From a virus, in the IMG/VR virus record IMGVR_UViG_3300032050_000177, positions 1-54,624 of that record: DNA of 54,624 nucleotides. The stretch is one strand, 5' to 3'. A program made the position numbers and the translations under genes. This document shows, in pieces, positions 1 to 15,146 of this stretch. Each line of letters starts with the position of its first letter. The first letter of the stretch is position 1. Below the pieces are notes generated by a model. That model was not told where the DNA came from, made no database searches, and worked only from the letters and a program-made list of their open reading frames with translations.

Positions 1-2097
1 TCCTGTATAAATGTATCCATAGTTAAATGAATTGTCATTAAAGGTGTAGGAGTTGGTTCCTTGACCATAATCATACCAAAAACTACCGAAAGCGCTTTCT
101 GAGTTATATCCCAAACTTCTATATGAAGAGTAATCATTAAACACTAAAGAACTAAAAGCAAAGTCTATTCTTTTATCAATAAATGAATTGTCATTCAAAA
201 CCACATTAGAACAGTTAAATCTTCCAATAAACAGATAAGTACTCTCGCCACTATAATCATTAAAAGTCATGGATTGGCAAGGTATATCGAAATAAGTTCC
301 ATAGTTTCCTAGTCCAAATATTTGTGAATTGTGATTAAAAATATAATTGTTGCTACTAGTCATTAGAGAGCTATAAAAAGTTATGCTACTATAGTTATTG
401 AGAGTTAAGTTTCCAGCTATATTTGCTCCATTATTTAAAGCGGCCTCATTAACATAACTATCATTTAGAATAATATTTGGCACATTGTAAGTTGCACTTA
501 GGTACGGTTGTATGCTACCATCAATACTACTACCATTATTAAATGTTATAGTAGGAACAACAACATTATTACCAATATAGATAATCTTATTACCATAATA
601 CGCAAAATTACTATTATTATTAAAAGTAACAGTATAACTCACAGTAATATTAATGTCAAAATTTATATTTCCAACACTACTAGTACCAACAGTTAGATTT
701 TTACATTTGGCCAAAGTTTCTATACTTACTCCAAGACTAACAGTATTTACATTAGCTAATATAACAACGCTATCAATTTGATTTTGGGGAACTGTTCCAG
801 CGTCTGGTAGTCCTATGGCCCCGTTGATGGGAATTGTGCAACTTTCATCCAACCACCAGTTGTTAAGATTACTCCAATCACCATCAGTGGTGGCGTTGTT
901 ATAGTAGTAAGTTAAACTATAATCATTTGGATAGGAGCTATTCCATGTGATTGTTCCAGTTATGGTGCTTCGTTTAATACTACTATCATTAAAAGTAACA
1001 TCTCCAGTGATGTTTCCGCTAACGCCAAGAGCAGAATTATCATTAAAAGTTGTGTTTGCATTAATGGTACCAGTATTTATATAACTAGAATCATTAAAGA
1101 TGACACTACCAGTGCCTCCATTTGAGAACACATTTATTCCACCATTGTGAACTGAATTATTATTAAATGTTATAGTTGCACTAGCATCAGTCATGTTCAT
1201 TTGTATTGAACCACTAGGTACTGCTAGTATTGATGATCCATTAAATATTGCGCTGTTTGTTATATTGGAGTTTGTTCTCATCTCAGCATCAGTTATAGTG
1301 AAATTTGCAACTGTTGGTTCGCTTCCACTATTACTAGTTATATTTGCACTAGCAACTACGCTATCAATATTTTGAGGTAAGCCTATAAGCGTTGTTATGG
1401 GTACGGTGAATCCGCTATCCAGCCACCAGTTGCCTATATTATTCCAGTCGTTGTCTACGACTCCGTTGAAATAGTAGGTTAATCCATCTCCATCGGGGTG
1501 ATAAGTACTATTCCATGTAATGGTTCCAGTTACATTACCTCGTTTTATACTATTATCATTGAATTCAGCGTTTCCAGTGATATACCCGCCTTGTGTTCCA
1601 TCCCAAACCCCAAGAATACTACTATCATTAAATGTTACAGTTATATTATTTCCGTCTATTGGACCAATACAATAACTATTATTATTAAATGTAACATTAC
1701 CAGTTATACCATATTGTGTTCCAGTACCATCATGATATGAACTATCATTAAAAACAACATTTCCAACGATAACCCCATTATCATTAAATGAAGTGTCATT
1801 AAAAACAACACTACCATTAATTTGTGCTAAAAGGCTTGTTGAATCGTTAAAAGTAGCAGTTCCGGTTACTGTTAGAATTGTGCTTGATAACTGAATGGTA
1901 TAACTTCCACCACCAATAGTAAAGTCTATTACTGTTGGGGCGCTTCCACTATTACTACTAATGGTTGCACTAGCAATCACACTATCACTACTAGTTGGTA
2001 ATGCTGATGCTGGTGTTGTAAAGCCGCTATCATCCCACCAGTTGCCTAGAGTATTCCAATCACCATCTACAGCACTGTTAAAATATAATGTGGCCAT
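1..2097 (-). CDS. Beta-repeat adhesin / tail protein, 3' end cut by window
   Basis: The minus strand is open without a stop from an ATG at 2097 to the window edge (699 codons), preceded by a GGGAGA ribosome site. The product is built from short repeats resembling VTFNDNS or VTFNNNS, many Asn, Thr and Gly, as expected of a parallel beta-helix or beta-roll. A larger module beginning with a motif like DGDWNTLGNWWDDSGF occurs three times (starting near residues 9, 223 and 403), each followed by a fresh run of FNDNS repeats. This organisation is typical of phage and bacterial surface adhesins, so a receptor-binding or virion decoration role is inferred. No catalytic motif is seen. The C-terminus is missing, so full length is unknown. 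Open reading frames on the other strand here are shadows of the repeats. Confidence 0.85.
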   Translation of the reverse strand, partial: MATLYFNSAVDGDWNTLGNWWDDSGFTTPASALPTSSDSVIASATISSNSGSAPTVIDFTIGGGSYTIQLSSTILTVTGTATFNDSTSLLAQINGSVVFNDTSFNDNGVIVGNVVFNDSSYHDGTGTQYGITGNVTFNNNSYCIGPIDGNNITVTFNDSSILGVWDGTQGGYITGNAEFNDNSIKRGNVTGTITWNSTYHPDGDGLTYYFNGVVDNDWNNIGNWWLDSGFTVPITTLIGLPQNIDSVVASANITSNSGSEPTVANFTITDAEMRTNSNITNSAIFNGSSILAVPSGSIQMNMTDASATITFNNNSVHNGGINVFSNGGTGSVIFNDSSYINTGTINANTTFNDNSALGVSGNITGDVTFNDSSIKRSTITGTITWNSSYPNDYSLTYYYNNATTDGDWSNLNNWWLDESCTIPINGAIGLPDAGTVPQNQIDSVVILANVNTVSLGVSIETLAKCKNLTVGTSSVGNINFDINITVSYTVTFNNNSNFAYYGNKIIYIGNNVVVPTITFNNGSSIDGSIQPYLSATYNVPNIILNDSYVNEAALNNGANIAGNLTLNNYSSITFYSSLMTSSNNYIFNHNSQIFGLGNYGTYFDIPCQSMTFNDYSGESTYLFIGRFNCSNVVLNDNSFIDKRIDFAFSSLVFNDYSSYRSLGYNSESAFGSFWYDYGQGTNSYTFNDNSFNYGYIYTG

Positions 2098-2111
2098 CTT
2101 TTCTCCCTAAT

Positions 2112-2423
2112 TTATTGAATTGGTCGTACAGGAGGAGAGAACAATGATTGTAGGACCTTGCTTGGTTCGTTTCCTAATAATTCGATTATTCTAGCCTCTA
2201 CTTCTGCTTGAGTATAGTCGCCAATAGTTGTATAACTTTCACCTTCCCAAAGAACTAGTGGCATAGGAAGTGGTCTTATTTGAACAATAACATTTTTACG
2301 CTCAACACTATCAATAATAGTAACGTCAAGGTTATTTAAAGTTATAGGATTAAAATTTCTAACCGACCCATCTTGTCGTGTTATGCTGGGTGGTGTTATA
2401 GTAATTGGATCTGTTAAATTCAT
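2112..2423 (-). CDS. Small conserved-looking tail-region protein
   Basis: A 103-residue protein with an AAGGAG site before its ATG. I do not recognise a family. The N-terminal part (ITITPPSITRQDGSVRNFNP) resembles short beta-rich virion proteins, and residues 60-95 hold an acidic amphipathic helix (YTQAEVEARIIELL). It lies 14 bases upstream of the beta-repeat adhesin in the same direction, so it is probably co-transcribed and may be an adaptor or chaperone for the fibre. That role is inferred from position only. Confidence 0.7.
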   Translation of the reverse strand: MNLTDPITITPPSITRQDGSVRNFNPITLNNLDVTIIDSVERKNVIVQIRPLPMPLVLWEGESYTTIGDYTQAEVEARIIELLGNEPSKVLQSLFSPPVRPIQ

Positions 2424-2438
2424 AGTTTTCTCCTTGTA

Positions 2439-3374
2439 TTAATAGCCGGGAACAAATGCTACAACGTCCCATTTGTCTCGTCCAGAGTGATATGTGGCGG
2501 CAAAAATGTCCATTTTATTGGCGGCTGTACTCCAAGGAAGTGGACTAGTTGCACTACTGGGAATAACAAATTTATCTCCAAGAGTTACTCCTCTATTACC
2601 ATTACCATCTTGAAGTATTCTCCAACGAACTGTTTTACCATTTACAGGATTGGTGGGATTGGCTAATGTGGTATTATCTGTTAAAGTAACATCAAAAACT
2701 TCGCCCAAAGAACAATCTGTGCTTAGAGTGGTATTAAAAGTTAATGAAACTACTGTTGGAGAATATGTTATGGGGGAATCTAAATATAACACTTGTGGAA
2801 TACCTGATCCATCACCAGTAACAATATTTCTTAAATGACCAGCTTGCCAGTTAAGTTCATAACCAACAGTGCAATTTAAACTAATTCCACCATTACCACC
2901 AACCCCACTATCAAAAGACCCTTCGGCAAGGCTAGAATTATTACTTAAATTAACCCCACTAAAGGTTGGGAAATTAAAAGTATTTAGATCTTGATCAAAA
3001 GGATTTGGTATATTAGGAATATCTCTTCCATCAATATTTAATCTATATCCTGATCCAACATTTTCCCAGTAAGTTGTATCAGTTACTGGAATACTTTCAT
3101 TATCAAATTTTGCTCTATATAAATTACCACTACTATAAACAAGATCATTAACAAGATATCTTGTTCCGTCAGCAAGAGTATGATTGCTAGTCCATTCTAC
3201 AGCAGCATCAAATGAAGACCCTCCACCACCGCCCCCAATAGCGACACTTATTTGACTTAAACTAATCTTTTTAGTAACGCTAGACCCAGATGGATCGTCC
3301 ATGAATAAGAAAACGTCATCGTTACTTAAACTGCCGCTACCTTCTGGAAACTCGTTTATTCTTTGAATTGGCAT
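2439..3374 (-). CDS. Tail fibre protein with CBM5/12-like segment
   Basis: A 311-residue structural protein. The first 45 residues (INEFPEGSGSLSNDDVFLFM followed by VTKKISLSQI) match the usual N-terminal attachment segment of phage tail fibres. A poly-Gly hinge at about residues 48-53 follows. Residues 58-108 have the aromatic pattern of carbohydrate-binding module 5/12: a WTSN start, LVNDLVYSSGNLYRAK in the middle and TTYWENVG at the end. The rest is beta-rich with a C-terminal DKWDVVAF motif common in fibre heads. I infer a fibre that binds a surface glycan such as a chitin-like or N-acetylglucosamine polymer; substrate is not shown by the sequence. Confidence 0.8.
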   Translation of the reverse strand: MPIQRINEFPEGSGSLSNDDVFLFMDDPSGSSVTKKISLSQISVAIGGGGGGSSFDAAVEWTSNHTLADGTRYLVNDLVYSSGNLYRAKFDNESIPVTDTTYWENVGSGYRLNIDGRDIPNIPNPFDQDLNTFNFPTFSGVNLSNNSSLAEGSFDSGVGGNGGISLNCTVGYELNWQAGHLRNIVTGDGSGIPQVLYLDSPITYSPTVVSLTFNTTLSTDCSLGEVFDVTLTDNTTLANPTNPVNGKTVRWRILQDGNGNRGVTLGDKFVIPSSATSPLPWSTAANKMDIFAATYHSGRDKWDVVAFVPGY

Positions 3375-3375
3375 A

Positions 3376-3597
3376 TTAAGCTCCCACTATTACTTGGTTG
3401 CCTAGGGTATAGTATGTTACATCATCGAATCTATTACCATATTTAGATTCTAAAGCTTCGTAGCTGATGCCAACATCTTGTGCTGAACTTGCTACATAGT
3501 TACCAGTTCTTGTGCAGTATACAACGGCAGAGCCGGTATTTTGGGTTTCTCGGCCTGGATCTACGTTTGTTACAACGTCTACGGTTGAAATTGGCAT
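3376..3597 (-). CDS. Small unknown protein in fibre operon
   Basis: A 73-residue protein, 1 base from the next fibre gene, so almost certainly in the same operon. It begins MPISTVDVVTNVDPGRETQN and ends in a beta-rich DVTYYTLGNQVIVGA. No family recognised and no membrane segment. Similar tiny proteins often sit between fibre genes and decorate or fold them, but that is only context. The 130 bases upstream contain no gene. Confidence 0.6.
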   Translation of the reverse strand: MPISTVDVVTNVDPGRETQNTGSAVVYCTRTGNYVASSAQDVGISYEALESKYGNRFDDVTYYTLGNQVIVGA

Positions 3598-3728
3598 GAT
3601 TTTAACCTCATATTAGGGGGAAATACATAATAGTATACACTTATTATATGCTGGCGGCTTAAGTAAAAGCACGATCAATATCGTTTTCTGTTAAGACTAA
3701 AATTTGACTTAATTGACAATATAGAAAG

Positions 3729-4049
3729 TTACTCCATTACTATTGGATCTTGAGGTAATAATAATAAAGCGTCACTCCAAGGGATAACCTCCACTTCTTT
3801 GCCTAATATTTCTTTATCAGCCGCAGCCCACATATCTGCGAGCAGCCCTCCCGGCAACACCTCCGTCAGAATGTCGGCACAGAGCATGAGCCGCCCATCG
3901 GTCAGCGTGAGCGGCATCGGGACGCAGTTGGACGAGCCGTGCAGCCGGTGTAGCTCCGCGAGGCGACCGGCGAGGGCGGGCGTGAACACCAAGGCCAGAA
4001 CCTTAGCATCCTCATACGAGATCGGCAGCGTAAGATCGAAGAGCGTCAT
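3729..4049 (-). CDS. Small protein of the GC-rich tail cassette
   Basis: A 106-residue protein whose start ATG overlaps the stop of the gene before it (ATGA), indicating translational coupling. The 5' two thirds are strikingly GC-rich with C/G-ending codons, while the last 30 or so codons (EILGKEVEVIPWSDALLLLP) return to the AT-rich usage of the rest of the window. The product is Leu/Ala rich; no family recognised. With its partner it looks like a tail-fibre assembly or chaperone pair, by position only. Confidence 0.65.
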   Translation of the reverse strand: MTLFDLTLPISYEDAKVLALVFTPALAGRLAELHRLHGSSNCVPMPLTLTDGRLMLCADILTEVLPGGLLADMWAAADKEILGKEVEVIPWSDALLLLPQDPIVME

Positions 4050-4920
4050 GGAATAGCCGCGCGAACGTCTGACATAAGTTGCGACACAAGGCGATCTAGC
4101 AAAATTAAATCCACGCCAGCCCCAAGGCTGTAAAACGACACCCTGCCGTTGCTGTAGATGTCAATGGCGCCTTCGCCGCCGTTGCCGTTGCGAGCAAGGA
4201 CGGCGACCGTGATATTTCCAAACAATGCGCTCGCGCCAACGATTGTCTCTGAGATTGCGTTTCCGCGAGCAGTGTATGAAACAGAATATGCGTTGCGGCT
4301 TGCGCCAATAAACCCAGCCGCCCTTAAGTTGGCCGCGCTGTCACCTGCATTGAAGGCAACTCTTGGCCTAATCCGCAAATTACCTCCGTATAGCAGGGCC
4401 AACACTGCTGATCCGATATATTGGCTAGTGGCTGCAACCGTCCCGATGTCGGTAACGAACACAGACAGGTGGGCGTTGTTTGGATTAAAAAATGCGTCTT
4501 GCCTGTTTGTCCACAAATACTTCGACGTGCCATTGCCCCTTAACCCCGGTGTCGCGCCGCCTCTTGCGTAATCGCCGCTGACGAAATTGAAGTTTGTCGG
4601 CGTTGCCCCTTTGAGAGGTTGCAGGCATCCGGCCAGCGAGCGAGCGCCGCACAGAATGCAGCAGTCGGTTATCGAATCCCAGACGCCGTTCGCCTTGCAG
4701 GCTTGAACAAACGAATTAAACGCCGTTCGTACGCGAGGCTCAAGCGGCGCACCGTCCGCCGCTTCGACACGCTGGATGTAGCCCAAGGCGTCAGCGTCGT
4801 ATGCGTATGGATCGCCGGGCATCGACACCGCCACTGGCCTGCCCAGCAGTCCTCGCGGCATCGTCGCAAACTGCGTCGGCGGAGTCAGGATGCCGGGATT
4901 CATAGATCGGCACCCAAAGC
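3830..4920. other. GC-rich island with foreign codon usage
   Basis: About 1.1 kb that is clearly GC-rich (runs such as CCTCCCGGCAACACCTCC) inside a strongly AT-rich tail region. Both edges fall within coding sequence: the left edge inside the small gene ending at 3729, the right edge near the ATGA junction at 4900-4903. Reading frames and coupling signals stay intact across both edges, which argues for a functional cassette acquired by recombination and against simple assembly error, though the latter is not excluded. Confidence 0.75.
4046..4903 (-). CDS. GC-rich phage structural protein, LamG-like candidate
   Basis: A 285-residue protein. I place the start at 4903 (MNPGILTPPTQF), where ATGA overlaps the stop of the upstream gene; the longer frame to 4969 merely reads the upstream gene in another frame. 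Residues 30-110 carry DADALGYIQRVEAADG and later SFVQACKANGVWDSI, a segment I recognise as recurrent in phage tail proteins, followed by a beta-rich region with LRGNGTSKYLW and NNAHLSVFV typical of LamG/jelly-roll folds. Base and codon use are unlike all neighbours, pointing to recent transfer. A glycan-binding fibre head is inferred. Confidence 0.8.
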   Translation of the reverse strand: MNPGILTPPTQFATMPRGLLGRPVAVSMPGDPYAYDADALGYIQRVEAADGAPLEPRVRTAFNSFVQACKANGVWDSITDCCILCGARSLAGCLQPLKGATPTNFNFVSGDYARGGATPGLRGNGTSKYLWTNRQDAFFNPNNAHLSVFVTDIGTVAATSQYIGSAVLALLYGGNLRIRPRVAFNAGDSAANLRAAGFIGASRNAYSVSYTARGNAISETIVGASALFGNITVAVLARNGNGGEGAIDIYSNGRVSFYSLGAGVDLILLDRLVSQLMSDVRAAIP

Positions 4921-5289
4921 CGTCACAACTCCAGCATTTACAGTATGAACAGTTGCTCTTAATGACCATGATGAAGATGGTAATACAAGATTACTATATG
5001 ATGTACTAACTCTGGTTTGTTTTGCACTCTGAGAACCTGTAGCAGCAGGAATTGCCACCTCATCAAATAAATAATAGGATGATCCATCATATAAAAATAG
5101 CCTAACCATTGTGGCAGACGATACTGTAGCTGTCATTTGAACAACAACTTCGGCAATTCTAGTTCCAGACGATGCTCCAGTAATTACTGTAACTATATTG
5201 GTAGGAGATGTGTATGATGTGTCGGCAGAACCAGATAGTGCTATTGAGCCTATTCTTGGTGTAACAGCAAATTGAGGACTTAAAGCCAT
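4900..5289 (-). CDS. Small beta-rich virion protein
   Basis: A 129-residue protein with an AAGGAG site ahead of the ATG. It is Ser/Thr/Val rich with alternating hydrophobics (RIAEVVVQMTATVSSATMVR) and a YDGSSYYLFDE turn, consistent with a single beta-sandwich domain seen in phage baseplate or capsid decoration proteins. Its stop overlaps the start of the GC-rich gene by ATGA; the GC shift begins just at this junction, so this gene appears to belong to the native AT-rich operon. Confidence 0.7.
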   Translation of the reverse strand: MALSPQFAVTPRIGSIALSGSADTSYTSPTNIVTVITGASSGTRIAEVVVQMTATVSSATMVRLFLYDGSSYYLFDEVAIPAATGSQSAKQTRVSTSYSNLVLPSSSWSLRATVHTVNAGVVTALGADL

Positions 5290-5299
5290 AAATTTCTCC

Positions 5300-8176
5300 T
5301 TATCTAAAACTTGACCATAAATATAAATTTGAACTATTTATTATATTAATACTATTATTAATTGTAAAGTTGCCACTAGTAGAATTTATTATTATTCCAC
5401 TACCACCAGTAATATTAGTAACCGGTAATAATCCACTAACGCTAGTATTAAAATCTGTAATATCAGAAGACGTATGAGTATGACCAACAAGACTAACACC
5501 AGTACTATTTACTGTTAGTGAAGTAAAATTACCACTAGCAGCATTAATAAGACCACTAGCATTTAATCCATTGCTAAAAGTATGAAGTGCGCTAATGGTT
5601 CTATTATTATCAATATGAACATATTGGTTATGATCATCGTCTGCTAATCCGAACAAACTACCGTGATCGTTTTGAACAACACCCACAGCTGTTGATTGTA
5701 TAGTAACTCTAAGATCAAGAATACTTTGTAAACTACTCTTAGGAGTATTAGTATAACTATTGTTGGTTCGAAAAATTAATCGATATAATGGTCTTATTTC
5801 TTGTGTGGGAATATTAGTGAGATTAATATCGCTCCAAGTATTATTATTTTCAGCACTATTTAAACTACTATCTTGTCTTTGACCAACTATAGCAAGAATA
5901 GGATCATTAATATCGTTTGTTGCCACAATCCACATTGCGAAAAATCTATCGTTAGTAACATTTGGTGTTGTCCAAGTTCCTCCACTAAGCAAATTATACT
6001 GAGCGCGTGTGCCGTTGTATTTTACTGGGAACGCTGTGGCAGGGTCTCTTACCCACTGTCCCGTACTTCCACTATGATAATAAGTGGGAATATAAGCTAT
6101 TGGACTTAATGGTTGCACGAATTCATTTGCACTGTTAGTGCCATTATCGTCAGTGATATCAATAATAATATCTTCTTGATATAACACACCATCAGATATG
6201 TCTATTTGAGCATGACTATTAGAAGATCCATTACCTAATAGTGTATACCCTCCAATACTTAATCCGCTAATATATTGCATACCAAAAGTGTTGTGAATCC
6301 ATTTATGGGTTACGCTATCCATTCGTATTCCGTGACGTTCTTCACCAAAAAACGTGCTTTGGTTTATGTCACTATTCCAGTGAATAAATCCGATTGGAAT
6401 ATCAGTATCAAAATCAAAGCCGGTAGTTTTTGTGTGTAGAGTATATGGTGACGTAGTATCAAAGTGCAGATAATTTAATGCTGTTCCACTACCAAGCACA
6501 ACAGTCTCAACACCACTTTTAATAACCTTAACTCCTTCTGCATAAATAGCATAAGATCCACCAGAAATTGCCGGTTGTATTGTGAATGTGCGAGAACTAT
6601 CATCAAAACTAATTATACTATCAGTTCTATTAACAAATCCTTGAGGTTCTTGACTTAGTATATTAATTTCAGTATGACGATTGTCTATCGTTAGAATACC
6701 AGAAGGATCATTATAAGTTAAACTTACTCCTGTTCCAGCAACCAATAATTGGCTAACTCTATCATCAACTTCCTCTGTTGTTAATCCTAATTGACCAGTA
6801 ACTGATACTGTAAAGACTGATCCGCTAGAACTAACCCCGATATTGCTACCAGCTAATATATTTGTTACAGGAAGTAGTCCGCTTACTGAGGTATTAAAGT
6901 CGGTTATTTCGGATGCTGTGTGGGTATGACCCACAATACTATAATTGCCACTCGGTTGTAATCCAGTGGCGCTAATAGTTAATGAGTCTGCTATATTGTC
7001 ATAATTTAAATTGATATAACTACCAGCTTCTAATAAAGTAGATACTTCTTGATCAATACCATCCCCAAAATCTGTAATATCAGTATAATTATGGGTGTGA
7101 ACACTATTAGCATAATTTCCGCTAGGTTGTAATCCACTCACACTTATTGTATAAGTATTATTATTAAAAGAAGAATTAATATAGCCCGTTCCCGTTACGC
7201 TAGGCAACAAACCACTAACACTACTATCAAAATTAGTAATATCACTACTGGTATGATAGTGAATTCCGCTAGCGTATACTCCGCTTGCCTGCTTATTATC
7301 TAAAGCCGTTTGCAAGCCAGTTACATCATTAATAGAATGATTGTGGCCAACAATGCTATAATTACCACTGGGCTGTTTGCCATCCAGAATATTTTGTAGA
7401 TTTGTTATATCGCCAACAACGTGTTGGTGTGTTAAACTGGCTTTTCCATCTAGCGCGGATTGAGTCGCTGTACTTATTGGCTTATTAAGATCGCTAGTAT
7501 TATCTACATTTGATAATCCAACATCGCCCTTGTTTAAAGTTACATTTCCATATTTGCCAGCAACGCTTTTAATTGGGGAATATCCACTAACAGCCGATTC
7601 AAAGTTTGTGATATCATTGGCAACGTGAGAGTGTCCAACTATAGAGTAATTGCCACTAGGCTGTAATCCTGACGTACTGATAGTAAGCGTATTAGCATTA
7701 TCATTATAATTTAGTGTAATATTAGAACCGGCCAATAGTAAGTTAGATACTCTATCATCAACTTGCTCTGGAGTTAGGCCAAATTCGCCCGTTACTGCCA
7801 CGGTATAGTTTGTGCCGCTTTTTGTTACCGATATGCCGCTACCAGCAGAAACGTTAGTAATCGTTAAAAGGCCACTTACCGCCTGTGCAAAATCTAGTAT
7901 ATTACTACTTTGTAGATTAGGATTAGACAACCCTATAGTCAATGAGTCAGTGCCAGAAGCTAATACTATGCCAGAACCGGCTTGCAAAAACTGAGATATT
8001 CTTGTATTTAAAAGATTAGTAACTTCAAGCGGGGTAAATGTTAGTCCGCTCTCAATCTGTATAATATTATTATCAAAAGTTTGTACTTCAATAGAGGCAG
8101 GATTATTTCCTATAGAAGTTTCAATCTGTATAGATTTTACTGGATTGTCTTCTATTTGTACTGTAAAAGATGACAT
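5300..8176 (-). CDS. Long tail fibre with repeated GHxH modules
   Basis: A 958-residue fibre. Residues 1-500 and the C-terminus hold many copies of a module with the pattern LQPSGNYSIVGHSH then DITNF.SAVSGLLP, separated by AGSGI or AGSNI turns. The GHxH pairs resemble metal-coordinating histidines of trimeric phage fibre shafts such as T4 gp12 (known biology; metal binding here is inferred). A central non-repeated region of about 330 residues (near 505-840) likely forms a globular head, followed by DHGSLFGLADDDHNQY, a recurrent fibre motif. It sits in one operon with the other fibre genes. A trimeric side or long tail fibre is most likely. Confidence 0.88.
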   Translation of the reverse strand: MSSFTVQIEDNPVKSIQIETSIGNNPASIEVQTFDNNIIQIESGLTFTPLEVTNLLNTRISQFLQAGSGIVLASGTDSLTIGLSNPNLQSSNILDFAQAVSGLLTITNVSAGSGISVTKSGTNYTVAVTGEFGLTPEQVDDRVSNLLLAGSNITLNYNDNANTLTISTSGLQPSGNYSIVGHSHVANDITNFESAVSGYSPIKSVAGKYGNVTLNKGDVGLSNVDNTSDLNKPISTATQSALDGKASLTHQHVVGDITNLQNILDGKQPSGNYSIVGHNHSINDVTGLQTALDNKQASGVYASGIHYHTSSDITNFDSSVSGLLPSVTGTGYINSSFNNNTYTISVSGLQPSGNYANSVHTHNYTDITDFGDGIDQEVSTLLEAGSYINLNYDNIADSLTISATGLQPSGNYSIVGHTHTASEITDFNTSVSGLLPVTNILAGSNIGVSSSGSVFTVSVTGQLGLTTEEVDDRVSQLLVAGTGVSLTYNDPSGILTIDNRHTEINILSQEPQGFVNRTDSIISFDDSSRTFTIQPAISGGSYAIYAEGVKVIKSGVETVVLGSGTALNYLHFDTTSPYTLHTKTTGFDFDTDIPIGFIHWNSDINQSTFFGEERHGIRMDSVTHKWIHNTFGMQYISGLSIGGYTLLGNGSSNSHAQIDISDGVLYQEDIIIDITDDNGTNSANEFVQPLSPIAYIPTYYHSGSTGQWVRDPATAFPVKYNGTRAQYNLLSGGTWTTPNVTNDRFFAMWIVATNDINDPILAIVGQRQDSSLNSAENNNTWSDINLTNIPTQEIRPLYRLIFRTNNSYTNTPKSSLQSILDLRVTIQSTAVGVVQNDHGSLFGLADDDHNQYVHIDNNRTISALHTFSNGLNASGLINAASGNFTSLTVNSTGVSLVGHTHTSSDITDFNTSVSGLLPVTNITGGSGIIINSTSGNFTINNSINIINSSNLYLWSSFR

Positions 8177-8201
8177 ACTAGAGCTTCCTACTTTCTACTA
8201 G

Positions 8202-8600
8202 TTAGCAACTTAGTTGATCAGAGGTTTGGCTAAACCTCTTTACTATAGTAATTGTTCCATATAATACTCTAATAATCTTTTGCCCGCCACCCACATATAA
8301 ATCTTCTGGCATTTGAAGTTCTAAATCATATTTAGCTTGATTAAAATTAAAGCTATTTGTTGTAGACGCTGGGAGCATTAGTGTGAGCTTACCAGCCGCA
8401 ACGTCGGTAGTGAATCTATACTCTGAATAATTCGTATTATTAGTCACAAAGGTGTAAACGGTGCCAGACCCAGTTTTAAAAACTAGTCTACCGCACCATC
8501 CAGCTATATTAATAGGATTTCCACTTTCGTCTTTATGAACTAAAGACATTTGAAATGAAGAACCCTGCTCTATAGAAAAATCATGTTTTGATGCGGGCAT
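8202..8600 (-). CDS. Baseplate/neck structural protein candidate
   Basis: A 132-residue protein starting MPASKHDFSIEQGSSFQMSL. The early QGSSF motif, a KDESGNPINIAGW segment and alternating beta strands are the pattern of small immunoglobulin-like proteins found near fibres in cyanophages and related marine phages (recognised by pattern, not by search). It precedes the long fibre gene by 25 bases in the same operon. A role as connector between fibre and baseplate is inferred. Confidence 0.7.
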   Translation of the reverse strand: MPASKHDFSIEQGSSFQMSLVHKDESGNPINIAGWCGRLVFKTGSGTVYTFVTNNTNYSEYRFTTDVAAGKLTLMLPASTTNSFNFNQAKYDLELQMPEDLYVGGGQKIIRVLYGTITIVKRFSQTSDQLSC

Positions 8601-8628
8601 AGTTTATTCCTCTTGTGTCAGTAAGATA

Positions 8629-9804
8629 CTACACTATTTTTACGCCTAGTTGCATATTATCAACTTGCTGTTTCGTCCATGATCCACTAGTGATAGGATT
8701 ATTAAATAAAAATGTATTTTTATAATTATAAGAAGTTGAATCTACTAGATACCCACTACCTATTTCTTTTATTGTACCGCCAATGCCGCTAGTCATGATA
8801 TTGGTAAAATTCATATTACTATTTAAATCAATCTTTTTAACAACATTTATTATTTTTATTCCTCCAACATTTGGTGGTGCTGACCCGTCAATATTAGACA
8901 TATTGAACAAGCACGCATTGCCGCTGGTAGAACTATAAATATATCCACTGTCTCCGTTATTATCATCAACATAGCTAAACGAAGGAGAAGTTTCAGAATT
9001 ATTAACTCTAGCTTTCCATTGCATTGTAGAAGAATCACCATTTGGTACTATACTATAAATTTTAGTATCTTGTCCAAGTAAACATTCTGAACTATTATTT
9101 CCAGCAGTTAAATATAAATCGTCCATAGCGCCAGTAGATATTTGATCATTAGTAGCATAATATTTAATACTTTTTAAGCTATTAAAACTATTAATATTTG
9201 TATAAATACCACTAGAAGAGTTAAGTAAATGGGTATTATAACTATTACTTGCAGAAAATCTCATAGCCATTTGACCTAGCGCTGGATTTATATATATTTC
9301 AATATAGCTATCATTCATAATATACCTTACAGTGCTTGACTCACCTATAACCCAACTACGACCTATTGGGCTGCTAAGATCATAAGTATCTAATAATGTT
9401 CCATTTTGATAAATTCCAAACCCCATACTGGTTTGACTGTTATACGTTGTTTTAATCACATCTATCCTTAATACTTCTGTAGAGTTATTATAAAATGAAA
9501 TTAAATTCTCTGCGTATGGTGGTGAGGCGTTATTATTATTTGTTTTTATTTGATAAGCGCTACACCAAAAGCCTAGACCAAATCCGCTATGACTAACTAA
9601 AGGATCATCAAAATTTGATAAAGTCAATGTGGCATTATGTGCTAAACCAGAATTAATCGGCCTTGGAGCAATACGTACCGCATTACCAGTTCTTCCAGCA
9701 CCAAAAGAGATAGATGGTGATGAATTAGTAGACCAGCAAAATGGATCTAAACGTAAAGTATCAGAATTATTATAATTAAAACCTTCAAAAAATATAATTG
9801 GCAT
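8629..9804 (-). CDS. LamG-like fibre protein
   Basis: A 391-residue protein beginning MPIIFFEGFNYNNSDTLRLD. The FFEGF start, many Asn/Ser turns, SHSGFGLGFWC, a VLRIDV strand and a MDDLYLT segment are typical of concanavalin-like (LamG/jelly-roll) domains in phage fibres that bind sugars. No enzyme motif is visible. The C-terminal region (WTKQQVDNMQLGVKIV) matches the exact end expected of such domains. It is preceded by a clear AGGAG site and followed closely by the next virion gene. Receptor binding is inferred from fold type and context. Confidence 0.78.
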   Translation of the reverse strand: MPIIFFEGFNYNNSDTLRLDPFCWSTNSSPSISFGAGRTGNAVRIAPRPINSGLAHNATLTLSNFDDPLVSHSGFGLGFWCSAYQIKTNNNNASPPYAENLISFYNNSTEVLRIDVIKTTYNSQTSMGFGIYQNGTLLDTYDLSSPIGRSWVIGESSTVRYIMNDSYIEIYINPALGQMAMRFSASNSYNTHLLNSSSGIYTNINSFNSLKSIKYYATNDQISTGAMDDLYLTAGNNSSECLLGQDTKIYSIVPNGDSSTMQWKARVNNSETSPSFSYVDDNNGDSGYIYSSTSGNACLFNMSNIDGSAPPNVGGIKIINVVKKIDLNSNMNFTNIMTSGIGGTIKEIGSGYLVDSTSYNYKNTFLFNNPITSGSWTKQQVDNMQLGVKIV

Positions 9805-9813
9805 TTCATTCTC

Positions 9814-10170
9814 CTAAGAATTTTCAGTACATAATATATCAATATATAGTGTACTATTTTGTAGCTCGTTTTTATTTTCGTTATTAAGCATTGCGTCCAT
9901 TAATAAAGTGCTATTGTATAATTCATTTTTATTTTCACTAGTAGCTATTGTGTCTACCGATAATGTGCTAGTATAAATATAATCTATGTTTAAAGTGTCA
10001 TGCGCTATAACATCGGAATTGATAAAAGTCACCGATATATTGCTTGGCGCAAGTGTAGTAGTTGTTGTAGTAGTGGTTGTAGTAGTGGTTGTAGTAGTGG
10101 TTGTAGTTGTAGTGCTTGGTGGTAATAAACGATAAATTAATAATGAATTATTACTAATAAACGGCAACAT
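9814..10170 (-). CDS. Poly-threonine virion protein
   Basis: A 118-residue protein. Residues 1-19 (LLIYRLLPPS) lead into about 20 consecutive Thr, then LAPSNISVTFINS and two imperfect repeats of an NENKNELxNSTLxxD unit. The same TTTT-LAP and TTTT-AAP linkers occur in the large gene just upstream, so this gene may be a detached fragment or partner of that fibre. The ATG directly follows the upstream stop (TAAATG), implying translational coupling. Long Thr runs in exported or virion proteins are usually extended, possibly glycosylated linkers; that is inference. Confidence 0.6.
   Translation of the reverse strand: MLPFISNNSLLIYRLLPPSTTTTTTTTTTTTTTTTTTTTLAPSNISVTFINSDVIAHDTLNIDYIYTSTLSVDTIATSENKNELYNSTLLMDAMLNNENKNELQNSTLYIDILCTENS
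10054..10113 (-). repeat. Thr-codon trinucleotide repeat tract
   Basis: About 20 consecutive ACN codons, mainly ACA, ACT and ACC, forming a trinucleotide-repeat tract. Related shorter tracts occur at about 10966-11065 and 11990-12020 in the next gene. Because the unit is three bases, length change would alter linker length without breaking the frame. Confidence 0.8.
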
Positions 10171-13104
10171 TTAAAATACGCCGCTTCCTAAATAATGTCC
10201 ATATATTGATGTGCCCATAGCTCTAAGTAGAATAAGATGTTTAGCTACAGGTAGTGGATTTGGTGGCGAAGAATACCAATTAGTGACTATTGGCCATGAC
10301 ACATTCGTACTTGATCCAGCTACAGAAAGATCTAATAATACATCTCTGCTAATATCATTTGTAGAAGGCCAATTGTTACCTTTATTCATAATAGCAGCGG
10401 TTCCACTTAGTGAGCCTGTTTGTATTTGTTTGTCAACGGCCCAATCAATATTTATATTGCCATAATTAAGAGAGCCTAAGTTATAGATTGATGTACTATA
10501 TACATCATTAAAATCTGCTATGTCTGATCTGACATGCTGATGACCGATTGGAGCATAGTTGTTTCCGTTAAAATCCGTTATATCTGATAGTACGTGTTGA
10601 TGATTTAATGGTGCATAATTTCCGCTAGACTGTACATTATTTAGAATTCCACTAAGACCGGTGATATCACTTAAGGTATGTTGATGATTACTTAGGGCTA
10701 AACCTGTGGCACCTATCACATAGGTATTTCCAACCGATGATATATTAATATTATTAGAAGCTAATAGTGTTGGAAAATCTATGGTTCCAGAGATATTTAC
10801 TGGTAGCAGTGCTGACCAAGGAGTATAACCGTCGCCCACCTTAATAACTCTAGTGTCTGTAGCATATCCAGGTTCACCGGATGCTAGAATAGTATTAGCA
10901 GATATAAATTGTGCGTTAGTTGCTCTACGAAGTTGAATCTTAGAAAAGCTTCCTCTTGACATGCAAGAGCCTACTATTTGTGGGCGAACTGTAGTAGTAG
11001 TAGTAGTAGTCGGCGCAGCCGTTGTGGTTGTAGTGGTTGTCGGCGCAGCCGTTGTTGTCGTTGTTGTATTAGTAGCTCCACAAACATAAGATGAAGCTAC
11101 TGGTCCATCTCCAGTTGTATTTGCAGATACACATGTTGGAGCAGTATCACTTTGTGTAGCATAAGTATAGTATCCAGGAGAACCACTACCATTTTTATTA
11201 GGAGAGTAATAAGCCGCTTTATACCATTCATTTTCGGTTGGTATACTATATTTAGCATTAACATTTCTAACCACATTTGTCTCAGATGTCGCTCCGTTAA
11301 GAGTGTATGCGCCACCTTCTGTTGTCGCAGTATTTTGAATCCCATTAGGTTTTCCGTTATGTAACCAGTTACAATATCGCGCAGCACTAAGCCATGTCAA
11401 AAAAACTACTGGTTTATTACCCATATTATTTTTGATAGTATAAACATAACTACCGCTACTACCGCTTCTATCTATACCACCTCTAGAAGAACTCATATTA
11501 CTAATATAGACTGAGTAAGTATCAGTACTTGCGACTGCATTTAAAAATTCTACGTATTCACAATTTGTTACCGCATATTTACTTATTTGATAGGCATAAT
11601 TCACTCCTCCATAGCTCAAGCCAGTGTTATTGTCATTACTATTATTAATATTTCCAACAGTAACAAAATAAGGAAGACCTAAAGGATTAAAAACAGAAGA
11701 AGAACTTGATAAACGAAAACCTACATCTGGGCCTGCGTACATTGTGGATGCGCTATTCCTATTGAATGACGATAAAGAGAATTGAGTACCTCCGTCACTC
11801 CAGAGTCCTCCACGACATGCACGGGCAGGGGGCGTATCAATAATAGTCTCTGACCATTCTAGCACATTTCCACTCTGATCATAAGTACCATAAGCGCTAG
11901 GCCCACCATTACTTCCCACGGTTGTAACGTTTCCGTTCTGACCATTCCAATCAGCACAATTATTAAAATTAGCAGTATTAGGACCAATGGGGGCTAGAGT
12001 TGTAGTTGTTGTAGTGGTAGTTACCGCAACGTCACTAAACAAAGCCGCAGAGTGATATCCAGGCCCAGCTTTTACTGCTACTGGAGTGCCAGATATATTA
12101 TTGTTAATTTTTACTGGTGATAATCTATTAATGTTTGTTCCGTCGCCAAGCTGATAGTTAGTATTTAAACCCCAACCATAAACATCGCCATTCGCATTTA
12201 TCGCCAATGTATAGTTATTCCCAGCACTAACCTCTGTCCATGCGTGACCGTTTATTCTAGATACTAAAATTGGCATAGATCTACTATTTGTATTTCCAAG
12301 CCCCAACTGACCATACAGATTATAACCCCAAGTATATAAATCTCCATCAGTGGTAATTGCTGCACTGTGCTGTGTTCCAAGACTAACTTTAGACCAATAT
12401 AAAGGTATAGAATTAGCTAGAGTTCCACCAACAATAATAAATGACGTTCTTAGGGTTTGTGTATTGTCCCCAAGTTGGCCACGATTATTAAGTCCGCATA
12501 AATATAATCTATTATCTCCAGTGATAATAGCTGTGTGGTAATCTCCAGCGGCTACATATTTTATATCGCCGGTAACCACGACATCTCCGGTAGATCCGGT
12601 TACTGCATTTCCAATTTGTCCATAATTATTTCTTCCCCAAATATAAGCTTGTCCAACTGTATTTAGCGCAATGTTATGATAGTTACCAGCGGATATTTGA
12701 ATGTATGGGCCATATGAATTAACAGTGACACTGGCTTCGTTTCCTTGAAGGTAAGTATTATTACCCCTAGCCGCTACGGTCCCATTTGACGTAAGGTACA
12801 GACTATGTTGCAATCCAGCTTCAACTTGTATAATATTAGCTGGCAGATTGTTTGATAAAGATCGAAATGGGGTTTTAGCTCCCACTCCAGCATCTGCTCC
12901 AGAATTGGTTAACTGGTTTTGTGAATTATCTCCACATCCAACATATGTTCTAGCAACGCCACTAGTGCCGATGGTATGATATCCACCAGCCGCTACCACG
13001 TTAATAGATGGGACGATTAATAGTGGAGAATTTTGAGTTCCAAGATTAGTATTTCCAATTTGGGATATACTGTTGTCGCCCCAAAGATATAGTCTGTTAG
13101 ACAT
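10171..13104 (-). CDS. RCC1 / permuted FGE (SUMF1) / tail-fibre fusion
   Basis: A 977-residue multidomain virion protein. Residues 1-358 hold RCC1-type propeller repeats (YLWGDNSISQIG, YTWGYNLYGQLG, YGWGLNTNYQLGDG). A Thr linker (362-369) leads to an FGE/SUMF1 C-type-lectin-fold domain whose halves are swapped: 375-465 is the usual C-terminal half (YGTYDQSGNVLEW, RGGLWSDG, VGFRLSS) and 478-677 the usual N-terminal half (YQISKYAVTNCEYVEFLNAV, KPVVFLTWLSAARYCNWL, YSIPTENEWYKAAYY). Thr/Ala/Pro linkers (679-705) follow, then a fibre segment (IQLRRATNAQF ... EPGYATDTRVIKVGDG) and GHQH/NHQH modules. A receptor-binding fibre using a propeller and a lectin-like domain is inferred; sulfatase-activating chemistry is not expected. 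Start overlaps the protease stop (TAATG). Confidence 0.88.
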   Translation of the reverse strand: MSNRLYLWGDNSISQIGNTNLGTQNSPLLIVPSINVVAAGGYHTIGTSGVARTYVGCGDNSQNQLTNSGADAGVGAKTPFRSLSNNLPANIIQVEAGLQHSLYLTSNGTVAARGNNTYLQGNEASVTVNSYGPYIQISAGNYHNIALNTVGQAYIWGRNNYGQIGNAVTGSTGDVVVTGDIKYVAAGDYHTAIITGDNRLYLCGLNNRGQLGDNTQTLRTSFIIVGGTLANSIPLYWSKVSLGTQHSAAITTDGDLYTWGYNLYGQLGLGNTNSRSMPILVSRINGHAWTEVSAGNNYTLAINANGDVYGWGLNTNYQLGDGTNINRLSPVKINNNISGTPVAVKAGPGYHSAALFSDVAVTTTTTTTTLAPIGPNTANFNNCADWNGQNGNVTTVGSNGGPSAYGTYDQSGNVLEWSETIIDTPPARACRGGLWSDGGTQFSLSSFNRNSASTMYAGPDVGFRLSSSSSVFNPLGLPYFVTVGNINNSNDNNTGLSYGGVNYAYQISKYAVTNCEYVEFLNAVASTDTYSVYISNMSSSRGGIDRSGSSGSYVYTIKNNMGNKPVVFLTWLSAARYCNWLHNGKPNGIQNTATTEGGAYTLNGATSETNVVRNVNAKYSIPTENEWYKAAYYSPNKNGSGSPGYYTYATQSDTAPTCVSANTTGDGPVASSYVCGATNTTTTTTAAPTTTTTTTAAPTTTTTTTVRPQIVGSCMSRGSFSKIQLRRATNAQFISANTILASGEPGYATDTRVIKVGDGYTPWSALLPVNISGTIDFPTLLASNNINISSVGNTYVIGATGLALSNHQHTLSDITGLSGILNNVQSSGNYAPLNHQHVLSDITDFNGNNYAPIGHQHVRSDIADFNDVYSTSIYNLGSLNYGNINIDWAVDKQIQTGSLSGTAAIMNKGNNWPSTNDISRDVLLDLSVAGSSTNVSWPIVTNWYSSPPNPLPVAKHLILLRAMGTSIYGHYLGSGVF

Positions 13105-15146
13105 TAAAATACCTTATCTAGTGTCCATGACACTTTTCTTGGTGGGAAACCGTCAACATCACTAAATACCCAAGAGCCATTTTGACTTAACATTTCAGCA
13201 GCATCCCGCTCTCTAATCCAAAAGCTGCCTTCTGGCTGATCATGTCTCTTTGGTCCACCATTCCAAACTCCCCAAGAATTTTGCACTAAGAATAAAGTCT
13301 CTTTGTAAATTTCATGAGTATCATCCATAGCTATCCAAGCCATCGCGTGGTTCCAGCCACCACTTCTAGAGGCTATACCATATTGATCTCTTCTAGAACT
13401 AAATCCAGAACCAGAACAAACACTAATAGCATAACCGTTAGCTAGAGCATCACGGGCCTGTTCTATGGTGTTAATTAGAGATATGGTCTTGACTTTATTC
13501 TTACTAGCTACTTGAACAAGCTCTTTTGGAACTCCGCTTCTACCCCATTTGCCACCAATAGCACTATATTCAGAAAGATCATACTCTCCATATTTCTTTC
13601 TTAATAGAATACCGCCAGATTGATGAACAAACTTAGCAGCACCAGAACATGTCATGCCTTCACCACCGTGACCTCTAGAGCCATAAATACCTTCTGTAGC
13701 TCCGCGAGCAACAAACTCTTCTCGTTCACCGTTAATAATTTCGCACGATCTTGTAGCATCTACCGCGTTTCGCGTGGCGTGACTAACACAATTTTTTATA
13801 ACTGCTCCACAGCCATCTATAAATGTGTGAGTCTTATTTTCTACACCAATATCATAAACTTCTTCGTGTGGTCCTTCTTCAAGTTCTACTTTGGTTATAG
13901 GCATAGCTAAATATTCATCATCTCTCCAGATATTTCTAGACGTTTTATTTAAATTCCAAGAAACTATATAAGCTATTTTATTGGTTTTCCCGGTTCGCTT
14001 GTCGGTCCTTTGCCGACTTTTTAGAGTTGGAATAAATCCATTATTAATAGCCCAAAATCTAATGCCATAAACTAAAGATGGGCTTGTATTGGTAAATTCT
14101 TGACGGTCAGATTGATTTTTATTACGACGCTTTCTAACATTGCCGTCCGCATCAATCAATCCTTCTACAACATCATCGTTTATAGCCCAGCTTGGAAGAA
14201 CTTTATGGCCATTTTCATCATAAAAATATTTTCTAAACAAATTATAGATGATATCTATTTTGTGAGTATATACTTTTCTAGCTTTTTTACTTGTCTTACA
14301 ATGAAAATAAGAGTTCCAGCTAATGCCCAGATAATCTAGTGTATTACACAACCTTTGTTCTATTTCTGGTTCGTCTGTAGTACATCCCCATTCAAGAGTT
14401 TTGCTAGATTTTTTAGTATGACCATCACCCAAAAATAATCCAATCATCCAGCGACAATTTTTATCACCCATAAATAATAACATATCTTCTGGTATTTTTG
14501 TGTCATATTCTATATTTAGTGGACAGAGCAAATAATCCGCTTCTGTTAGCTCTGAAGCAGAAACTAATTCAGCTTTTCTAGCAGTAAAAACAGTGTTAGA
14601 TTTATGTTGTGTATTTAAACCCAACTTTTTTACTACCTCGTTTTGCGATCCCGGACTGTATCTTCTTTTCCATTTTGTATTGTTGTTAACAAAGCCGCCA
14701 AAGCGATATGCTAAAACTTTATGGTCAGAAGTTACTTCTAATGGAAGACCTCCTTTAGTATAGATTTTTACCATAGGATTAAGAGACTTTTTAACCATAG
14801 TAGAAATAACTTTGGTTATTTTGCCATCTCCAGCATAAACCCTGTCGCCAATTTTAATGTCTTGTATTTTTTTTACAAAATCTGGACTAGGAATTAGGGC
14901 ATCTTTTTTTCGACAATCCCCTTGGACTTGTCTTTCGGCAGGCCCGAAGCCGGGATCAAACTTTACGAGATTCTTAAATGGAAGAGCTAACTTACCCTTG
15001 CCACTTCCAGATAAATCATAAGCCGCCACACCAAACAATGGGTGAGGTAGTTGACCCAAAAGCGCATCCAGTTCTTTTGGGTCACAATAAGAACCTACAA
15101 AACCGTCTTTATAGGCTTTTAATAAATCTCTAGGTGTTTTAAACAT
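13104..15146 (-). CDS. Papain-like (C1) cysteine protease split by an intein
   Basis: A 680-residue precursor. After removal of the intein (residues 78-452) the mature protein is about 305 residues with a papain-type triad: Cys453 in the joined motif QGD-CVSHAT, His in GWNHAMAWIAMDD and Asn in LVQNSWGVWNGGP, plus Gln75 as oxyanion residue. The intein ends exactly before the nucleophile, so the protease cannot be active until splicing is done. No signal peptide is seen. It follows the holin candidate by 1 base and precedes the RCC1/FGE fibre, so roles in virion maturation, host wall protein cleavage or tail function are possible; I cannot choose. Confidence 0.9.
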   Translation of the reverse strand: MFKTPRDLLKAYKDGFVGSYCDPKELDALLGQLPHPLFGVAAYDLSGSGKGKLALPFKNLVKFDPGFGPAERQVQGDCRKKDALIPSPDFVKKIQDIKIGDRVYAGDGKITKVISTMVKKSLNPMVKIYTKGGLPLEVTSDHKVLAYRFGGFVNNNTKWKRRYSPGSQNEVVKKLGLNTQHKSNTVFTARKAELVSASELTEADYLLCPLNIEYDTKIPEDMLLFMGDKNCRWMIGLFLGDGHTKKSSKTLEWGCTTDEPEIEQRLCNTLDYLGISWNSYFHCKTSKKARKVYTHKIDIIYNLFRKYFYDENGHKVLPSWAINDDVVEGLIDADGNVRKRRNKNQSDRQEFTNTSPSLVYGIRFWAINNGFIPTLKSRQRTDKRTGKTNKIAYIVSWNLNKTSRNIWRDDEYLAMPITKVELEEGPHEEVYDIGVENKTHTFIDGCGAVIKNCVSHATRNAVDATRSCEIINGEREEFVARGATEGIYGSRGHGGEGMTCSGAAKFVHQSGGILLRKKYGEYDLSEYSAIGGKWGRSGVPKELVQVASKNKVKTISLINTIEQARDALANGYAISVCSGSGFSSRRDQYGIASRSGGWNHAMAWIAMDDTHEIYKETLFLVQNSWGVWNGGPKRHDQPEGSFWIRERDAAEMLSQNGSWVFSDVDGFPPRKVSWTLDKVF
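13791..14915 (-). mobile_element. Intein with LAGLIDADG homing endonuclease
   Basis: A 375-residue intein. It begins with Cys (CRKKDALIPSPDF, block A), has the splicing block B motif LEVTSDHKVL (TxxH), and ends with block F VYDIGVENKTHTFIDG and block G VIKN followed by Cys+1. Between them lies a two-motif LAGLIDADG endonuclease: WMIGLFLGDGH near residue 233 and VVEGLIDADGNV near residue 326 of the precursor. The penultimate residue is Lys rather than the usual His, a known but less common variant. The endonuclease would spread the intein into empty protease alleles. Confidence 0.93.

Follow-up and report, generated by a model that had tools for sequence, protein, structure and literature searches.

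A probable circular permutation of an FGE-type lectin domain in tail-fibre-like proteins of uncultivated phages

Introduction

The FGE fold is found in human FGE (SUMF1), SUMF2, CarF, PvdO, and EgtB, none of which is permuted, and two of these proteins (FGE and EgtB) are enzymes. The C-type lectin variable proteins Mtd, from Bordetella phage BPP-1, and TvpA, from Treponema, belong to the FGE subclass of this fold. Both possess the canonical order of structural elements, are diversified by retroelements, and have a variable region located at or near the C-terminus. The role of Mtd is ligand binding (PMC5006420). Natural circular permutation has been described in phages for the DNA methylases of jumbo phages, in a survey of 224 such phages that detected no lectin domains of the FGE type (PMC7824862). 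No description of a permuted FGE or C-type-lectin domain was found in the open-access papers searched.

The protein considered here is encoded on the minus strand of a 54,624-nucleotide stretch of viral DNA, referred to as the window (positions 1 to 54,624 of IMG/VR record IMGVR_UViG_3300032050_000177). A preliminary description of this DNA claimed that the motifs of an FGE/SUMF1 domain occur in swapped order within the protein, and the split profile matches described below bear this out. Taken together with structure prediction and a survey of relatives, they indicate that the FGE/SUMF1-like domain is very probably a genuine circular permutation.

Organization of the Fibre-Like Protein

The features of the protein are collected in Table 1. 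The permuted domain is set among parts of tail-fibre type (Pfam, PHROG), including an Mtd_N-like domain of a kind that is common in phage tail fibres. The Thr linkers previously noted on either side of the domain are both present. The RCC1-like propeller, which had been considered part of the novelty of this protein, is indeed joined to the permuted domain here; this arrangement is one architecture among many and is not essential.

Table 1. Layout of the fibre-like protein in the window
Feature	Residues	Position	Strand	Basis	Motif order
Tail-fibre-like protein with permuted domain, 977 aa		10171..13104	-	ORF; Pfam and PHROG tail-type matches	
RCC1-like beta-propeller	5-352	12049..13092	-	PF25390 E 1.9e-63; PF00415 E 4.2e-45	
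Thr-rich linker TTTTTTTTLAP, ahead of permuted domain	362-372	11989..12021	-	sequence	
Canonical C-terminal FGE-like half, first in chain	374-468	11701..11985	-	PF03781 profile 158-253; canonical profile nodes 163-274, E 1e-26	NTANFNNCADWNG...YGTYDQSGNVLEW...RGGLW...VGFR
9-residue linker, canonical C-terminus to canonical N-terminus	469-477	11674..11700	-	AlphaFold2 pLDDT about 94	
Canonical N-terminal FGE-like half, second in chain	478-680	11065..11673	-	PF03781 profile 21-128; canonical profile nodes 1-204, E 1e-79	PYFVTVGN...YQISKYAVTN...YCNWLHNG...IPTENEWYKAAYY...TQSDTAPT
Thr-rich linker behind permuted domain	681-708	10981..11064	-	sequence	
Mtd_N-like domain	723-761	10822..10938	-	PF18454 E 8e-11; several PHROG tail fibre families	
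Phage tail repeat-like segment, HQHxLSDI repeats	806-864	10513..10689	-	PF12789 E 4.2e-4, under curated cut-off; PHROG minor tail protein E 3e-6	

Two neighbouring open reading frames on the same strand are also of interest. A 118-residue ORF located directly past the fibre gene (9814-10170) contains a run of about 20 threonines. The 680-residue ORF at 13104-15146 contains an intein with a LAGLIDADG-type homing endonuclease signature. The intein host appears to be a papain-like peptidase (QGDC ... NSWG), and its putative catalytic Cys is apparently the first residue behind the intein.

Evidence for a Swapped Order

The PF03781 (FGE-sulfatase) profile matches the 977-residue protein twice, and each half alone scores above the curated cut-off. 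The whole protein reaches 61.7 bits with a cut-off of 23.3, which places it in the family. Profile positions 21-128 match the window at 11194-11643 (E 6.7e-13), while positions 158-253 match at 11710-11949 (E 6.2e-7). As both matches lie on the minus strand, the end of the profile is read first, and the N-to-C order of the family is consequently not kept. A canonical profile built from 50 bacterial homologues is divided in the same manner, with nodes 163-274 at residues 348-465 and nodes 1-204 at residues 481-686. The full FGE-like domain spans about 11065-11985, slightly more than the 11074-11982 given earlier, and a single open frame runs across both halves. In a profile-profile comparison, residues 110-298 of the permuted family align with positions 1-187 of the canonical family (E 2.5e-81). 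A phmmer search of PDB sequences returned weak matches only, with the C-half motif leading.

The Permuted Family in Viral Contigs

A profile search with the halves in both orders had been suggested in the preliminary description, and it uncovered a conserved family with the same swapped order. The swapped-order query identified 53 viral loci, and one tblastn match spans most of the query in the majority of them; identities range from 35 to 62%, apart from one contig (L003) that carries an identical copy of the permuted region. HMM scans of the fetched viral loci yielded C-N units (about 110, non-redundant) that share the same break and have consistent borders, although each scan covers the best 80 loci and the number of units is therefore no unbiased census. 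The units start near an N.AN(F/Y)N motif and stop shortly past an (A/P)TQSD..P segment, and the gap between the C and N halves has a mode of 9-10 residues and is mostly 9-12 residues across the family. Units are found at the start of the protein in 39 of 110 cases and at the end in 29 of 110, with a Thr/Pro/Ser-rich linker preceding 47 and following 57 of them. Some proteins possess several units, the maximum being five (L027). With the canonical profile, 341 C-then-N pairs were detected in viral frames compared to 0 in bacterial frames (redundant counts). The roughly 110 viral units and the tree described below, on which the order changes once or twice, show that the swapped order is a conserved trait of a lineage and not an isolated case. 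No relatives of the permuted domain were recovered when 50,697 phage records were searched with tblastn and megablast.

The preliminary description pointed to the junction near 11690 as a place where misassembly could have created the swapped order. This junction corresponds to the 9-residue linker of Table 1. Chance and misassembly are excluded by the identical copy in L003 and by the recurrence of this order across dozens of divergent viral contigs, and the uninterrupted reading frame is a further argument against an assembly or sequencing artefact, the probability of which is negligible.

Nearly all of the canonical-order units in viral contigs are proteins of about 300 residues with a signal peptide and a PEP-CTERM-like tail, and these units may represent bacterial DNA. 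Clear exceptions are found in L018, L041, and L249, and possibly L356. In L018 (ORF 2-4408, residues 599-1174), a canonical unit comes immediately after a permuted one. This canonical unit clusters with planctomycete proteins, suggesting that a phage captured the canonical domain in a separate event. In L041 (ORF 1396-10584, residues about 937-1428), a full canonical-order FGE-like domain is nested within a permuted one, such that domains of one family are nested in opposite orders. The phage protein of L249 (ORF 1386-5540, residues 11-548) has the order C-insert-N-C, and its N-C part may reflect a return to canonical order via loss inside a tandem array. A different kind of insertion is present in L264 (ORF 3974-7897) and L274 (ORF 3587-7408), which contain about 290 additional residues that appear propeller-like by eye. 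The insert separates the C half from the N half precisely at the site of the canonical termini.

Predicted Structure of the Permuted Domain

The structure of the permuted unit was predicted with AlphaFold2 (monomer) using an alignment with 49 relatives. The model is one closed domain with new termini (pLDDT 94.7, pTM 0.94), an outcome that the preliminary description had named as support for a permutation. The control, a canonical bacterial relative (L138) modelled with its own alignment, gave a pLDDT of 91.6 and a pTM of 0.92; its least confident loop (residues 191-200) adjoins the position of the phage break. The elements of the permuted model (E45 E57 H71 E80 followed by E110 E135 H144 H165 E174 E184 H201 H254) include all of those in the canonical model (E2 E24 H33 H55 E64 E74 H91 H141 followed by E229 E240 H252 E261), cyclically rotated, with the exception of the short helix H109 of L138. 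The short linker that bridges the canonical termini is confidently placed in the permuted model. Such a bridge is easily made, since the first and last strands (beta1/beta5) of the FGE-type fold pair together in published structures (PMC5006420).

Comparison with known structures is consistent with this model. The canonical model aligns with FGE, CarF, TvpA, and SUMF2 over residues 1..276 (VIA-align Z 19-21.6; Z 21.4 for TvpA 2y3c) and with Mtd 1yu3 at Z 11.9, whereas for the permuted model the five best chains score Z 4.9-6.5 and only model residues 100-303 or so are mapped, to the first ~200 residues of those chains. A match limited to the N half is the behaviour that would be expected when a sequential aligner meets a circular permutant. 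Similarly, Foldseek returned 71 significant matches for the canonical model (best E 1.4e-9) and no significant match for the permuted model in PDB and BFVD. Because the canonical relative matches FGE-type structures strongly, the latter result was not taken as a sign of a new fold, and that interpretation was rejected.

The two halves are thus predicted to fold as a single closed FGE-like domain, and two other arrangements must be weighed against this prediction. That Pfam reports two distinct stretches could mean that each half is a small domain of its own and does not pack against the other, with the swapped order being incidental. This reading is very improbable, as the halves are found side by side, separated by a fixed short gap, in about 110 non-redundant units and the prediction is a single globule; a loosely attached half of 95 residues would not be expected to permit a pTM of 0.94. 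A domain swap, in which each N half would be completed by the C half of an adjacent chain so that no monomer closes a fold by itself, deserves somewhat more consideration, as phage fibres are usually oligomeric and the AlphaFold2 model is of a monomer only. A swap nevertheless appears unlikely, given that a single chain yields the high pTM noted above and that the linker is short, is confidently modelled, and connects strands that are paired in the canonical fold. Furthermore, units occur alone at protein ends as well as in series of as many as five along one chain. A circular permutation remains the preferred reading.

Canonical Relatives in Bacteria

Relatives were sought in bacteria and archaea by scanning one genome per species (84,980 species) with the N-half profile. 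The 80 loci listed, mostly from Planctomycetota and Verrucomicrobiota, contain 99 non-redundant canonical N-C units, and the best match among them shares 56% identity with the N half. No isolated C-N unit was present among the 80 loci; four non-redundant apparent C-N units were rejected, as they are composed of adjacent domains in tandem N-C-N-C proteins. Canonical relatives (L137, L139, L155) are continuous through the loop where the phage units start and stop. One tandem N-C-N-C protein (L147) is encoded in a single frame with a C-to-N gap of 12 residues, and it does not lie near the permuted group. Tandem FGE-like domains are also fused in one frame in L161 (ORF 2717-4897) and L209 (ORF 2180-4795), where an apparent PEP-CTERM tail and a signal peptide are retained between the domains, as if adjacent genes had merged.

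Origin of the Permutation

For phylogenetic analysis, the C and N halves were aligned separately and then joined. The tree requires one change of order without L249 and two changes with it, compared to a shuffled mean of 28-29. L249 has canonical order inside the permuted group and lies on a long branch. As the branch separating permuted from canonical units has low support (57), a single fixation of the permutation is favoured rather than proven. The finding of only the ordinary order in bacteria makes the swapped domain look like the product of one ancient rearrangement that became a building block spread by phages.

A duplicate-and-truncate route can be proposed for this rearrangement. The ancestor would have been a tandem canonical N-C-N-C protein, a type still seen in bacteria, and loss of the outer halves would have left C-N. 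The bacterial N-C-N-C proteins exemplify the type of intermediate that this route requires. In the permuted domain, the chain starts in the loop past the canonical (T/P)QSD..P segment and proceeds through the canonical C-terminal half; a short linker then connects the canonical C- and N-terminal strands, and the N-terminal half returns to the starting loop. Phages would subsequently have spread the C-N module, placing it between Thr/Pro/Ser linkers or at the protein end, in up to five copies per chain. We lean towards an account in which an FGE-type lectin domain, taken from a secreted protein of planctomycete or verrucomicrobial type, was permuted once and gave rise to a large family of phage-only modules, which is now shuffled through the tail fibres of many uncultivated phages and goes unseen in order-dependent structure searches.

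Proposed Function of the Permuted Domain

The fold, the location in a fibre-like protein, and the variable loops suggest that the permuted domain probably has a ligand-binding role in host recognition. The module would be a non-enzymatic part of the fibre that binds ligands on the host surface, combining a conserved N-half scaffold with variable loops in the canonical binding segment. The most variable columns of the family are in the loops ahead of the GFR motif. These loops are about equally variable in canonical bacterial relatives, which indicates that their variability is a feature of the fold and is not proof of phage-specific selection.

Membership in PF03781 raises the possibility that an enzymatic activity (formylglycine-generating or oxidative) has been kept and is used on the fibre or the host. 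In human FGE, the catalytic cysteine pair lies in the segment between RGGLW and VGFR, before the LGFR motif. The 977-residue protein has no Cys between RGGLW and VGFR, and the columns conserved in the family alignment (50 relatives) include no Cys. The lack of Cys in the catalytic-pair segment speaks against enzyme activity, which is considered highly unlikely.

The preliminary description also linked the domain to receptor-binding proteins diversified by retroelements, a link that is not supported. The domain does share its fold subclass with Mtd and TvpA, as reflected in the alignments of the canonical model, and its most variable columns lie just ahead of the GFR motif, where diversity-generating retroelements also introduce variation in Mtd and TvpA. 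However, a search for reverse transcriptase (RVT_1), for which control genomes were positive, gave no match in the window and none in 50 related viral records, which may be fragments. Additionally, a blastn comparison of the variable segment with the window returned the segment itself and matches of 13-14 bases only, giving no template repeat. Diversification by a retroelement was rejected on these two grounds, and the comparable variability in canonical bacterial relatives is a third argument against it; a variable protein of the Mtd or TvpA type is highly improbable.

Comparison with Known Systems

To our knowledge, natural circular permutations are seldom seen with both forms closely related. 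In this family, sequence identity between canonical and permuted relatives is about 50%, the break is located to within a few residues, likely duplication-type intermediates survive in bacteria, and both orders even occur within one phage protein (L018, L041). The combination of close relatives, a placed break, likely surviving intermediates, and proteins of mixed order makes the duplicate-and-truncate route directly testable. Furthermore, the fragmentary Pfam matches and the lack of a significant Foldseek match make it likely that a widespread phage fibre module is overlooked or misannotated.

The circularly permuted DNA methylases of jumbo phages are likewise natural phage permutations, but their fold is unrelated. 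The phage domain is predicted to have the fold of human FGE, SUMF2, CarF, PvdO, and EgtB, and it differs from the enzymes FGE and EgtB in lacking the catalytic Cys segment. Similar to Mtd and TvpA, the phage units have a variable segment ahead of the last strand, and unlike these proteins they are permuted. The canonical PF03781 secreted proteins of Planctomycetota and Verrucomicrobiota belong to the same sequence family as the phage units. These proteins have N-C order, are mostly stand-alone proteins of about 300 residues, and in many cases possess a signal peptide and a sorting tail that is often PEP-CTERM-like, whereas the phage units have C-N order and are embedded in fibre-like proteins.
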